Source of the DNA: Clostridiaceae bacterium | GTDB lineage: Bacteria > Bacillota > Clostridia > Saccharofermentanales > Saccharofermentanaceae | Direction: 5' to 3' | DNA: 48,464 bases | NCBI GenBank assembly: GCA_012718915.1 | Contig: JAAYBI010000028.1 | Coordinates: forward strand, 1-48,464 | In this document: one piece after another, positions 12,097-40,544 of the stretch | How the letters are laid out: every line of letters starts with the position of its first letter | Numbering within the stretch: the stretch's first letter is position 1 | Translations under genes and position numbers: made by a program | Notes under the pieces: model-generated | Seen by the model: the letters and a program-made list of their open reading frames with translations, nothing else | Databases searched by the model: none | Told to the model about the DNA's origin: nothing

Positions 12097-12132
12097 AAAA
12101 AAGCCCTTGCCCCTATATGCAGGGACAAGAGC
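12097..12132 (-). terminator. T-box attenuator terminator of the trp operon
   Basis: On the minus strand, GCTCTTGTCCCT and AGGGGCAAGGGC form a 12-bp stem (two G-U pairs) with loop GCATAT, followed by six T. It lies just after the T-box sequence, so uncharged tRNA-Trp should favour the antiterminator and read-through into trpD. Confidence 0.9.
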
Positions 12133-12370
12133 CTAAACTCCTGCGGTACCACCTTGCTTGACCGTGCGTTAACACGATCCACTCTGATCTCGTACTATCA
12201 TACGAGTCCGCCTGATAACGGGTCGGATCCCCGTCGGTGCCTACTAGATAAATCTTTCGGGCCGCCCTCGTAAGTCCATTCGTCGGAAACCAACCTGTTG
12301 CGATTCCACCATCCGCAACTCTCTATGAAATCAGTCACTCCGAGTACTACTCTTACTCAACAGTTTCTTA
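12133..12370 (-). promoter_or_regulatory. T-box riboswitch leader, tryptophan (UGG specifier)
   Basis: The minus strand carries the T-box sequence AAGGTGGTACCGCAG at 12155-12141, directly before the attenuator. Upstream is the Stem I region with AGAGAG and GATGGTGG elements. The specifier-loop context reads GAATGGACTT; TGG at 12278-12276 is followed by A, the usual pattern, and specifies Trp. This matches the downstream genes. Known mechanism: uncharged tRNA pairs at specifier and T-box and stabilises the antiterminator. The specifier assignment is by eye, without a covariance model. Confidence 0.9.
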
Positions 12371-18299: not shown

Positions 18300-19919
18300 C
18301 TAGTCGCCCATGAAAAGAGCGATATCTTCTTCAACAGAACCAATCGGGGCAATGCCAAATTTTTCGACCAGTACCGATGCGACATTCGGAGATAAGAATG
18401 CCGGTAAAGTCGGTCCGAGATGGATGTTTTTCACGCCGAGGAACAGAAGTGCCAGGAGAACAATAACGGCTTTTTGTTCGTACCATGCGATATTAAAAGC
18501 TATGGGTAAATCGTTGATGTCTTCGAGCTCAAAAGTTTCTTTAAGCTTCAGGGCAATCACCGCCAGAGAATAGGAGTCATTGCACTGGCCGGCATCCCAA
18601 ACTCTCGGAATACCCGCGATATCGCCGAGCGGCAATTTATTGTATCTGTATTTGGCACAACCTGCCGTCATAATCACTGTGTCGGAAGGCAACTTCATGG
18701 CGAAATCCGTATAGTATTCTCGAGACTTCATACGTCCGTCGCAACCGCCCATTACGAAAAACTTCTTGATGGCACCGGTCTTAACGGCCTCAACGATTGA
18801 GTCAGCCAGTGCAATCACTTGGTTGTGTGCGAAACCGCCAACTATACTTCCGCTTTCGATTTGAGTCGGTGGGGGCAAGGTCTTCGCCAGCTCGATAATC
18901 TCCGAAAAATCCTTAATACCCCTTTCATCGGCAACAATATGTTTGCATCCGGGGAATCCTGAGGCACCTGTCGTGAAAATGCGTCCCTGAATCTCGGGAT
19001 TTCTTGGTGGTACGATGCAATTCGTAGTAAAGAGAATCGGTCCGTGAAAGGTTTCGAACTCATCGATTTGCTTCCACCATGCGTTGCCGTAGTTTCCGAC
19101 CAAGTGCTCGTATTTCTTGAAGACCGGATAATAATTGGCCGGCAACATCTCGCTATGCGTATAAACGTCGACGCCATGATCTTTAGTCTGCTCCAGCAGT
19201 TGATCCAGGTCAACCAGGTCGTGTCCTGAAATCAATATTGCAGGATTCTCGCGAACACCGAGGTTGACTTCAGTAATTTCCGGATGTCCGAAACGAGTTG
19301 TATTAGCTTTGTCCAGGAGTGCCATCGCCCGTACTCCGAATTCTCCGGTTTTAAGGGTCATGGCCACCAATTCATCAACACCGAGCTGATCATTAATCGT
19401 CGCGGCGAGCGCCTCATACGCGAATGCAAATATTTCGCTGTCTCGGAATCCGATACGTTCTGCATGCTCCGTGTAAGCCGCCATACCTTTGAGCCCATAA
19501 ATGATGAGTTCGCGCAAAGAACGAATGTCTTCGCTCTCTGTCGATAATACACCGACGGATTGAGCCTTCTCGAGCATGGATTCTTTTGAAGAGACCTTAA
19601 ATGTCGCCGCATCCGAAAGTTCGTCCTGAGATTGGCGTATGCCGTCTCTGGCGGTCAACATTTTCAGAATTTGAGTTTCGAAAGCCGTCTCATCAAAATT
19701 CGCATTGGTGATGGTCATAAATAAGCTTTCAATGACATCACTATTAAGAGAGCCACAGAGTTCGGTTGCAACATTGTCCTTTATGACAATCTCTGATATG
19801 CCTTTCAGCGTGTAGATGAGCAAATCCTGAAGAGCGGCAACATTTTCAACTTTTCCGCAAACGCCTCGAACAGTACAACCTTTGTTTTTGGCGGTTTCCT
19901 GGCATTGATAACAAAACAT
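18300..19919 (-). CDS. hcp: Hybrid cluster protein / hydroxylamine reductase
   Basis: 539 residues. N-terminal cysteines Cys3, Cys6, Cys15 and Cys21 form the CX2CX8CX5C arrangement of class I Hcp from strict anaerobes. Further conserved Cys-containing segments ([38 protein letters not shown]) supply hybrid-cluster ligands. Hcp proteins reduce hydroxylamine in vitro and act on NO in vivo in E. coli; here it probably protects against nitrosative stress. GGAG lies upstream of the ATG. It stands alone: no Hcr reductase or HcpR regulator is adjacent, and I see no clear operator upstream. Confidence 0.96.
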
Positions 19920-20340
19920 AAAATACTCTCCTTTTCTGAAAATAGCTTGTAGGCAAATAGTGAAAGCTTACAGGGATTTGCCATATAATACTTGATATGT
20001 TTTTATGCTAATCCTGAAAGATTTATAAATCAATGAAGAGAGATAATTGTTTGGAAATCGTTTTCAATTCAATGGAAAAGACCGTGACATAAAGGAATAT
20101 AGTTTACGAGGGAGGCCTTTCAGCTATTTCGGTGAAAGGCGTGAATCATATTACGTGACATGACACGGAAACTGCCGTAAAAGGATTATGTCGCGAAGAA
20201 TATTGGTAAATCTTTCTCCGGAAATACGCCGCGAAAATTTCTTGTTTTTGTGCCGGGCACGTTGGAGTCGTCAATATCGGAGGATACTGACGAGATAGAG
20301 CATATGAGTGATTTTGGCGCTAGTTACGGTTCAAGCTGGA
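19920..20340. other. Intergenic stretch without a recognised gene
   Basis: Upstream of hcp (minus). I see no convincing promoter pair. A hairpin GCCTTTCA / TGAAAGGC lies at about 20115-20140. A reading frame from about 20185 to 20370 on the plus strand is open but has no start codon with a ribosome site and resembles nothing I know. The hcp promoter should lie at about 19930-20060. Confidence 0.4.
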
Positions 20341-20357
20341 CTGTGCATCACAATCTA

Positions 20358-20487
20358 ACACATACGAAATGATTGAGTTTGTGCTGTTTCGTATGTATTT
20401 ACTTTGATTTTCAGGCTAGCGCGAAACGGTTTGCTACACTCTAATACATACGAAATGGTTGGGTTTGTGCTGTTTCGTATGTATTTA
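20358..20487. repeat. Two copies of palindromic repeat family A (about 45 bp each)
   Basis: Copies at 20358-20402 and 20443-20487 are nearly identical. Each has a stem ACATACGAAA / TTTCGTATGT (10 bp in copy 1, 12 bp in copy 2) around a 17-nt loop containing GTTTGTGCTG. The ends run into ATTTAC, and copy 2 merges with the first family B repeat. No transposase is visible nearby, so this looks like a small palindromic element or a transcribed hairpin. Confidence 0.85.
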
Positions 20488-20693
20488 CCGCCAAATTCGG
20501 ATATTTTACAACTTTTGGCGGTAATCTGTAACTCTCGCAAGGCGATACGAAGCCATGAGGTGCTTCATTTACCGCCAAATTTCTGAGAATTGTCTGTTTT
20601 GGCGGTAATTTCAAATTCTTTCCTGTTCCCGGTGCACTTGATCTCTCAAGATTTACCGCCAAATTCAGAAGTTTTGCATCTTTTGGCGGTAAT
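20484..20693. repeat. Three copies of palindromic repeat family B (about 42 bp each)
   Basis: Copies at 20484-20525, 20568-20609 and 20652-20693. Each has an 11-bp stem TTACCGCCAAA / TTTGGCGGTAA. Spacing of starts is exactly 84 nt in both intervals. The arms are identical while the 18-nt loops differ, which suggests selection on the stem. Read as protein, the arms give LPPK and NLAVN, but this is a by-product of the palindrome. Confidence 0.9.
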
Positions 20694-20702
20694 CGCCTGA
20701 AG

Positions 20703-20835
20703 CGAAACGATTCGCCCCGTCGCTCGCGCCACAACCGCCACCACAACCACCACCGATACGCCCGGTGACCGTAGCCACAGCCGGCCCTACCACCGCCAAC
20801 ACCACCACAACCACCGCTGCCCTTACCTTCGAGCC
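20703..20835. other. GC-rich ACC/GGT-repetitive tract, possible remnant of a Gly/Cys-rich protein
   Basis: The plus strand is dominated by CCACCACAACCACC-like units, far richer in GC than its surroundings. In one minus-strand frame it reads a hydrophobic stretch (KVRAAVVVVLAVVGPAVATV) followed by GGGCGGGCG and a stop inside repeat B3. No start codon with a ribosome site was found. It may be low-complexity DNA or a decayed gene end. Confidence 0.4.
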
Positions 20836-20982
20836 ATTCTCAATCTCCAGTCGAATATTTTTCCGGCGCAGTGGCTAATATATGCTGATCAATTTCTAAC
20901 CCAATAACTCAATTGTGCGCCCCGAAGCATTTTCTAATAAACTTTTCACGGAAATAGATAATGAAACACGAGGGGGAGTGGG

Positions 20983-21011
20983 TTGACAAAGAAGTGAGGA
21001 TTTTTTATAAT
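20983..21011 (+). promoter_or_regulatory. Promoter of the histidine operon
   Basis: Consensus TTGACA at 20983-20988, a 17-bp spacer and TATAAT at 21006-21011. It is the only strong promoter seen upstream of hisZ; the ten downstream genes are closely packed, so it probably drives them all. Confidence 0.92.
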
Positions 21012-21020
21012 TCAAAATGC

Positions 21021-21050
21021 TTTACCGCTTTAGTGAAGTAAAGTGGTAAA
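21021..21050 (+). promoter_or_regulatory. Hairpin in the his operon leader
   Basis: TTTACCGCTTTA at 21021-21032 and TAAAGTGGTAAA at 21039-21050 form a 12-bp stem (one G-U) with loop GTGAAG, near the predicted 5' end of the transcript. No T run follows and I find no T-box sequence, so it is not a classical attenuator. It could stabilise the mRNA or, as DNA, be an operator. Confidence 0.6.
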
Positions 21051-21123
21051 GGAATCATTCATATTATGTCAGAAATTGATTTTCGGATATGATATTAATC
21101 AAACGGGTCAATTAGGAGGAGAC

Positions 21124-22347
21124 ATGGGTACTTATAGATTTCACACTCCGGATGGACTGAGCGACATGCTTCCGGAAGATTGTGCAGCCAAAAGAGGCGT
21201 AGAAAGCAAACTTCGTAAATTATATGAAGCTGGAGGGTATCAGGAGATTGAGACCCCGGGCATTGAGTTTTTTGATGTTTATGCCGGAGGCGAATTTGTC
21301 GCTCAGGAAAATTTATATAAACTTACCGACCAAGAGGGGCGCATTTTGTCGCTCAGATATGACGGCACTGTTCCGGTTGCCCGACTGGCAGCTACGATAT
21401 ACAAGGAAGAGGAACCACCCTTAAGATTCTGCTACGTTGGAAATATGTATCGCTTTCGTGAATCCGGTGGAGGTAAGCAAAGAGAATTCGCTCAAGCCGG
21501 AGTGGAGCTGCTGGGCGCAACAGGCGCGCAAGCTGATGCAGAAGTTATTGCACTTTCGATAGCTTCCGCATTGGAACTCGGACTGACTGATCTTCAAATA
21601 TCGATTGGGCAGGTCGATTTCTTTAGAGGCCTGATGGAGGATCTCGACATTACCGGTGAAGACGCCGTTCTGTTGTCTGAATTGGTTGACCGAAAGGATT
21701 CGGTCATGCTCGAAAAAATGGCCGTACGGTTTAATTTGTCCGAAGAGGATCAAAAGACACTTGCTATGATTCCGACGCTTTTCGGGACATACGAAATATT
21801 AGATATGCTCAAGTCCCGGGTCAAGAGTGCAAAAGCCGGAGCAGCAATTGAAAATCTTCGCCAAGTCTTGGATATTCTGAATGATTATGGCTACTTAAAA
21901 TATGTATCTGTCGATTTGGGTATGCTTCGGAGTCTGGATTACTACACCGGGATGATTTTTAAAGGTTATACACATGAGGTGGGGTTCCCGATTATTTCGG
22001 GTGGCCGCTACGATAAGGTCGTATCTGTTTTTGGAAGAGATCTCTCAGCGGTCGGTTTTTCAATCGGTATTACACTATGCATCGCAGCTCTTCATCGTCA
22101 AGGTAAGGCGTTTTCGAAAAAATCAATTGATGTCATTGTCGGCTTTGAAGATGCGCCCGATCTCAGGAAGAAGGCTATCGATACGGTTCGAATGCTTAGA
22201 AAGAAAAAAATGACGGCTATTTTGGATGTGATGAATAAGCAAGAAGCATCAATTTTTGAATACGCTAAAAAACGCAGAATTGAACAGGTTATTTTTCTGA
22301 AAGCTTGCGATTGCTGCAAAGACGTAGAGGAGATCTTAATACAATGA
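21124..22347 (+). CDS. hisZ: ATP phosphoribosyltransferase regulatory subunit
   Basis: 407 residues, a histidyl-tRNA-synthetase paralogue that lacks aminoacylation and forms a hetero-octamer with short HisG. It starts with [18 protein letters not shown]; class II-type motifs are [15 protein letters not shown] and [20 protein letters not shown] and SGGRYDKVV follow. There is no C-terminal anticodon-binding match of the length of true HisRS. Start is ATG 21124 with AGGAGG just upstream. It overlaps hisG by 4 nt, consistent with stoichiometric partners. A true hisS elsewhere is expected. Confidence 0.93.
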
Positions 22348-32374: not shown

Positions 32375-32536
32375 GTACCACCGAACGGGCCGATCAATTG
32401 AATAAATAGCCAAGCTAAAGACAGCAGGAAGCCCTTTGGGCTGTAAACGATTCGGTCGTCCCGCCGAGGATTAGGCAATACACATATCTTTGATTGTGTT
32501 TTTGTACCCCTCGTCCGTCTTGGCGAGGGGTATTTA
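32375..32536 (+). promoter_or_regulatory. L10 ribosomal protein leader with attenuator hairpin
   Basis: The rplA-rplJ gap carries the conserved L10-leader elements: AGCTAAAGACAGCAGG, the GCCCTTTGGGC hairpin and CCCGCCGAGGATTAGGCAAT. A hairpin TACCCCTCG 32505-32513 / CGAGGGGTA 32524-32532 with TTTATA after it acts as attenuator. In Gram-positives L10-(L12)4 binding to this leader represses rplJL. Confidence 0.9.
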
Positions 32537-32561
32537 TATATTAGTCAAGGAGGTGCACATT

Positions 32562-40287: not shown

Positions 40288-40316
40288 TTGTAAAATTAGT
40301 TTTTCATCGTTATATT
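40288..40316 (+). promoter_or_regulatory. Promoter of the cobalamin transporter operon
   Basis: TTGTAA at 40288-40293, a 17-bp spacer and TATATT at 40311-40316, just before the riboswitch aptamer. Confidence 0.65.
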
Positions 40317-40329
40317 ACCCGTATAAGCC

Positions 40330-40488
40330 ATCGGTGCTTGTTAATTCAAGATAATAGGGAATGCGGTATCAATCCGCAGCAGCCCCCGCTACTGTGAAGG
40401 GGACGAAATTCGTCTATGCCATTGGATCTCTGCTGAGATTTGAGAAGGTGCGAAGAATAGGTTGACCCGAAGCCAGGAGACCTGCCGA
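40330..40488 (+). promoter_or_regulatory. Cobalamin riboswitch
   Basis: The core reads GGTGC, AATAGGGAATGCGGT, then AATCCGCAGCAGCCCCCGCT and ACTGT, and closes with GACCCGAAGCCAGGAGACC. These are the invariant blocks of the B12 aptamer. A hairpin TTTCCTC / GAGGAAA (about 40507-40525) lies between it and the ribosome site AAGGAG; no T-rich terminator follows, so control is more likely at translation initiation. Confidence 0.95.
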
Positions 40489-40544
40489 TGAGTTCGTTTT
40501 TTGTGTTTTCCTCGGAGGGAGGAAAGGCACAGAAGGAGTATCCC

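Follow-up and report, generated by a model that had tools for sequence, protein, structure and literature searches.

The palindrome array at positions 20357–20692 of the window (the whole 48,464-nucleotide stretch of Clostridiaceae bacterium DNA analyzed here) is the interior of a nonautonomous ISL3-type modular MITE. We consider it reasonably probable (about 0.6) that the palindromes of this element are double-stranded DNA sites for a putative sequence-specific protein. The customary explanations for interspersed palindromes in bacteria are recognition by a transposase and RNA folding. In this element the arms are only about 2% divergent amid drift, the geometry is fixed and the arms switch in concert, pointing to a specific partner that should be findable by ordinary biochemistry.

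A recount in the window bears out the preliminary description of five palindromes of two families, two of family A and three of family B, with a family-B period of exactly 84 nt (starts 20485, 20569, and 20653), identical B arms and differing loops. The array itself is real, and its unit lengths are corrected to 43 bp rather than 45 bp for A and to 40 bp for each B. Palindrome A1 (20357–20399) has arms AACACATACGAAA and TTTCGTATGTATT with one mismatch in 13, and A2 (20443–20485), offset from A1 by 86 nt across a linker (20400–20442) that contains GCGCGAAACGGTTTGC, has perfect 13-bp arms (AATACATACGAAA...TTTCGTATGTATT) and abuts B1, the two centers lying 40.5 bp apart. The B palindromes follow the pattern TTACCGCCAAA-N18-TTTGGCGGTAA and comprise B1 (20485–20524; TAC core 20486–20523) and B3 (20653–20692; TAC core 20654–20691), both with loop type a, and B2 (20569–20608; TAC core 20570–20607) with loop type b; linker S1 (20525–20568), of which 34 copies were recovered through the linker sequence alone, follows B1, and linker S2 (20609–20652) lies between B2 and B3.

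Genome searches returned 34 exact matches to the B pattern (0 for the reversed control) and 46 copies of the exact A core. The possibility that the palindromes occur only here is therefore disposed of, as B is present on 16 contigs, 22 times in a congener (G001) and also in two other genera of this family. Palindromes with arms of at least 10 and a span of 34–49 number 115, versus 6 in Markov shuffles, in 360 kb of loci of this genome, all selected because they contain A or B. The earlier suggestion that selection acts on the stem and the spacing rather than on coding is also supported, given that the 83- and 84-nt spacings break the frame and that the flanks examined are all intergenic. Coding repeats were rejected because the spacing at many loci is 83 nt, which breaks the frame; a 101-aa minus-strand open reading frame across the array is artefactual, produced by palindromes spaced by 84 nt.

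The whole element occupies 20114–20967 on the plus strand and contains no coding gene. It is bounded by a left target-site duplication (20106–20113, ACGAGGGA) that is identical at 7 of 8 positions to the right copy (20968–20975, ACGAGGGG), and by terminal inverted repeats of about 24 bp, the left (20114–20137, plus strand, GGCCTTTCAGCTATTTCGGTGAAA) matching an ISL3 element end in contig C4 of this genome (GGCTCTTTATCTAATTCCGTGAAA) and the right (20944–20967) reading TTTCATTATCTATTTCCGTGAAA on the minus strand; the consensus ends are GGCTCTTCAaCTATTTCCGTGAAA (left) and GGCTCTTTATCTATTTCCGTGAAA (right). Between them lie a left unique module (20138–20335, plus strand; about 72–86% identity among copies), the palindromes, a short palindrome that ends the array (20702–20715, GCGAAACGATTCGC; GCGAAACGTTTCGCG in most copies), a degenerate low-complexity tract rich in CCA/GCC that varies between copies (20716–20830), and a right unique module (20831–20943, plus strand) repeated in this genome and in the congener. 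This architecture is common to the arrays: left module, A, B with linkers S1 and S2 and two loop types, a GCGAAACGTTTCGC palindrome, CCA/GCC-rich tract and right module. The tract after the GCGAAACGTTTCGC palindrome differs in every copy, with 12-nt AACCAGCGCACA-like repeats at locus L050 for example, and looks hypervariable.

Copies of the left part number at least 15 and of the right part 17 in this genome, compared with 6 and 7 in the congener. A second element, at locus L039, is flanked by the target duplication GAACGCAA/GAACTCAA, and its orthologous copy in the congener has GAACTCAA at the left flank. The 8-bp duplication is imperfect, clear in only two elements and unrecognizable in several older copies. 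In the window the element lies between the divergent genes hcp and hisZ (assigned via Pfam and gene order), upstream of both, and the corresponding hcp–hisZ junction of the congener (L152; HisZ 88% identical) lacks it, providing an empty site. A perfect promoter of the hisZ operon, TTGACA-17-TATAAT (20983–21011, plus strand), begins 16 bp past the element end and is also found at the empty site; the gene order, recognized from the open reading frames of the window, is hisZ-G-D-C. Downstream of this promoter is an inverted repeat, GCTTTACCGCTTT...AAAGTGGTAAAGG (21019–21053), with a similar one in the congener, which is probably an operator or leader hairpin of the his operon. No intrinsic terminator was found in 19900–21150. 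Elsewhere in the window, Rfam matches include a cobalamin riboswitch (40315–40503), a T-box leader (12118–12369), and an L10 leader (32397–32545).

With ISL3-matching inverted repeats, an imperfect 8-bp duplication, many dispersed copies, an empty site and no transposase gene, the element sustains the MITE-like reading offered in the preliminary description, except that what moves is the 854-bp element and not the 336-bp array. The resident ISL3-family transposase (PF01610, E = 5e-43) carries the ISL3 helix-turn-helix and zinc ribbon, and the upstream end of its element reads GGCTCTTTATCTAATTCCGTGAAAGAGGG. The ends of the MITE copies align to this ISL3 end better than shuffles do. Alignment of the two ends of the window element gives scores of 16 and 17 against shuffle maxima of 13 and 16, each a modest result taken singly, and a second MITE type in the congener aligns to the first ∼60 bp of the resident insertion sequence with a score of 45 (shuffle maximum 13). 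From the matching ends, the duplication, the dispersed copies and the empty site we infer that an ISL3 transposase moved the element in trans. The transposase is present in this genome and in G010, a member of another genus; its phyletic distribution does not match that of the arrays, because searches of G001 and G005, both of which bear arrays, did not find it. At locus L141 (1440–1600; contig C37 of G010), an ISL3 insertion sequence has landed within the first palindrome of a unit of the TTACAGTA type, and an ISL3 element may therefore target such arrays.

The palindrome arms are far better conserved than the remainder of each unit. Across 92 aligned units the arms diverge by 1.5–2.0% per site and loops of the same type by 14–16%; linker divergence is 10–24% overall. 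Units were also recovered by their linkers alone to avoid selecting on the arms; in S1 units the linkers diverge by 10% and the adjoining arms by about 2%, and in S2 units the corresponding values are 21% and 1.4–4.9%. Loop length is fixed and loop sequence free. In the genus of G010, arms diverge by 2.0% and linkers and loops by 16–28%. Some of the identity among arms may reflect recent copying.

A single rule, TAC-NNNN...N'N'N'N'-GTA with a span of 38–39 bp, describes all six arm families. Among 7-bp inverted repeats of this span, those starting with TAC number 95 in this genome, against at most 5 for any other trinucleotide, 33 versus 3 in G001 and 29 versus 10 in G010; the loci were picked through A and B, so the counts of these two families are biased, and an independent sample is provided by families C, D, E, and AGTA alone. 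The four address bases after TAC are CGCC (46), ATAC (38), CGGC (9), AGCC (1), and CGAC (1) in this genome, CGCC, AGCC, and ATAC in G001, and CGCC, AGTA, and CGCA in G010. Distances between palindrome centers (40.5, 63, 72.5–75, and 83–86 bp) correspond to about 3.9, 6, 7, and 8 helical turns, and the helical phase over seven array types, whose spacings are non-independent, gives R = 0.80 and p of about 0.011 at 10.5 bp per turn, which is suggestive of near-whole-turn spacing.

Arrays are restricted to a narrow set of organisms. A looser stem pattern occurs 38 times in this genome, 25 times in G001, 3 times in G005, and 35 times in G010, almost never in 54 other members of the family and in none of 390 further genomes from the class, indicating that only a few members of a single family have the site. 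The B pattern was also matched in Methylococcaceae, a marine gammaproteobacterium and Izhakiella, there as lone palindromes whose surroundings are unrelated. An origin from phages or plasmids was rejected, as these gave no match and the B pattern is absent from viral contigs. In Clostridiales bacterium strain 16 (L038, 3948–4151 and 7858–7895), 38-nt TTACCGCCAAA palindromes lie downstream of two similar genes and are followed by a shared AAGCAATGATGACGATG tail. Papers retrieved by searching the literature for the arm sequence matched it only by coincidence and, judging by their titles and abstracts, deal with unrelated subjects.

G010 contains 12 three-palindrome units with other linkers, of 23 and 33 nt, and two of those examined lie inside a different MITE with ends GGGGCTGTCTCAAA. 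Comparison of units reveals exchange of arms. At locus L164 the five arms tallied read TTACAGTA (one TTACAGTT) in place of TTACCGCC; the linkers are homologous, as is the interior of the second palindrome, P2, despite the switch (p = 0.0005 vs. shuffles). Both P2 arms at locus L163 read TTACCGCA, with interior and linkers still homologous, and in genus g1 the interiors of CGAC and CGCC palindromes are related (p = 0.0005). Arms thus change as a set, and the rest of the unit persists.

Of the three readings originally offered for the palindromes themselves, a protein-binding array is the best supported by inference. Protein half-sites are favored over RNA hairpins or a satellite because the arms are conserved, the loops are free in sequence and fixed in length, the spacing is helical and the arms switch in concert. 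On these patterns in the sequence, we predict that each palindrome comprises two inverted TAC-NNNN half-sites held at a fixed span of 38–39 bp, and that a putative protein would bind cooperatively, along a single helical face, to sites about 4, 6, 7, or 8 turns apart. All arms of an array have the same four address bases, which would change together when the specificity of the partner changes, and the number of sites presumably varies by recombination or slippage between units. Genes neighboring the arrays, which are intergenic, have no common function, and no partner protein was found. Speculatively, a bound protein upstream of the histidine-operon promoter could affect transcription; as the array adjoins a biosynthetic-operon promoter and the congener offers a clean empty site, a regulatory effect is directly testable. 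Further, the palindromes may belong to an undescribed class of “addressed” TAC-NNNN sites, helically spaced, whose four-base address would be exchanged simultaneously throughout an array in coevolution with a partner, be it a DNA-binding protein or a system formed by a UG26 reverse transcriptase with RT-5 RNA, and which would be carried in several genera by MITEs that are unrelated to one another, a proposal we put forward tentatively and with some doubt.

A purely selfish satellite, growing by slippage and unequal exchange inside MITEs, with arms kept alike by gene conversion or hairpin template switching and with no binding partner, is a somewhat unlikely account of the same arrays. Template switching is known to perfect quasipalindromes, B sites vary from 1 to 5 per locus with units alternating between types a and b, and chimeric palindromes combine an A left arm with another right arm, all of which speak for a satellite. 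However, template switching equalizes arms within one hairpin, not between loci that differ by 15–28% in their loops and linkers, and the TAC geometry is found with six different addresses and, in another genus, in a different linker context.

We regard it as unlikely that the arrays are transcribed into hairpins acting as attenuators, RNase targets or protein sponges in the manner of transcribed BOX or Correia elements, although the repeated-hairpin RNA proposed in the preliminary description does have a strong fold. The segment 20350–20720 folds far more stably than its shuffles (z = −6.8), pairing is retained when the arms switch, and BOX elements are transcribed in pneumococcus (PMC3049150); strong hairpin potential is equally expected from an RNA or a single-stranded DNA function. 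Against transcribed hairpins, 30 one-sided arm changes comprise 7 G.T, 4 A.C, and 19 others, the random proportion of 1:1:4, with no bias toward pairs that survive as RNA wobbles, which argues that RNA pairing is not what keeps the arms. Loop length is moreover fixed while loop sequence varies, no intrinsic terminator accompanies the array, the arrays match no Rfam family, and the window copy lies upstream of both divergent flanking genes.

More improbable still is that the arrays are a small mobile unit of their own, bounded by TTACCGCC/GGCGGTAA and lodged within several MITE types, whose movement would depend on its own enzyme, possibly a UG26 reverse transcriptase with RT-5 RNA (RF03026). 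The ∼174-bp three-palindrome unit of G010 does have sharp TTACCGCC/GGCGGTAA ends at dispersed sites, and B arrays occur in two MITE types of G001. This genome encodes a UG26-group reverse transcriptase (PADLOC RT_UG26) at L052 (10621–12029; contig C101), 0.7 kb away from an array, and G010 encodes another, 37–39% identical to it, at L114 (7480–6090; contig C2), 4.2 kb away from an array. Each has an RT-5 RNA upstream, scoring 73.6 bits in L114; the L052 match, at 37.7 bits, falls short of the gathering score. Yet no target duplication was seen around the G010 units, the proximity of the reverse transcriptases was noticed post hoc, and none was seen at the G001 loci examined. Viral contigs held no relatives of the enzyme. 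We treat the UG26 reverse transcriptase and its RT-5 RNA as a lead to a candidate array partner.

A true REP/BIME system mobilized by a RAYT (Y1) transposase, to which the size of ∼40 bp, palindromy, intergenic arrays and two alternating linker types would be suited, is hardly credible because Y1_Tnp has no match in G000 (this genome), G005, or G010, three of the four array genomes, and has matches in G001 and in 13 relatives with no or nearly no arrays, the element ends are ISL3-type, and the units are symmetric (TAC...GTA) with no GTAG (or CGTC) tag at one end as in REP and REPIN sequences (PMC3733652).

Comparison with known repeat systems places the element among familiar kinds and sets its palindromes apart. 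It resembles ISL3 insertion sequences and their MITEs in its GGCTCTT...TTCCGTGAAA ends, as in the resident ISL3 element, its ∼8-bp duplications and its dispersed intergenic copies; unlike it, the insertion sequences lack palindrome arrays, and only the terminal ∼24 bp are in common (∼60 bp in the second type of G001). A CRISPR array was rejected, the linkers and loops recurring among loci in a few types and the arrays being dispersed at tens of sites. REP, BIME, and REPIN sequences are likewise ∼40-bp intergenic palindromes arrayed with linkers, but here arms rather than a tag are conserved and RAYT is absent from most array genomes. Neisserial NIME/dRS3 repeats (ATTCCC-N8-GGGAAT), of which dRS3 is a target of phage integration, also have conserved arms, a variable middle of fixed length and dispersed intergenic arrays with other repeats (PMC3898611); they differ from the present palindromes, which span 38–40 bp, are helically spaced, switch arms as a set and showed no integrase association. 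The BOX element of Streptococcus pneumoniae, boxA-(boxB)n-boxC, is a modular MITE whose inverted ends are shared with a resident insertion sequence (PMC3049150), and similarly consists of internal units repeated in tandem, in varying number, between a left and a right module that are each unique. Our element is not counted as a BOX member because the likeness is one of architecture only: it has ISL3-type ends, is ∼850 bp long and carries a CCA-rich tract and palindromes of fixed geometry with interchangeable arm families. It is an ISL3-type MITE with BOX-like modularity whose unusual part is the palindromes themselves, the strictly spaced, swappable putative recognition arms setting apart an otherwise ordinary bacterial repeat.
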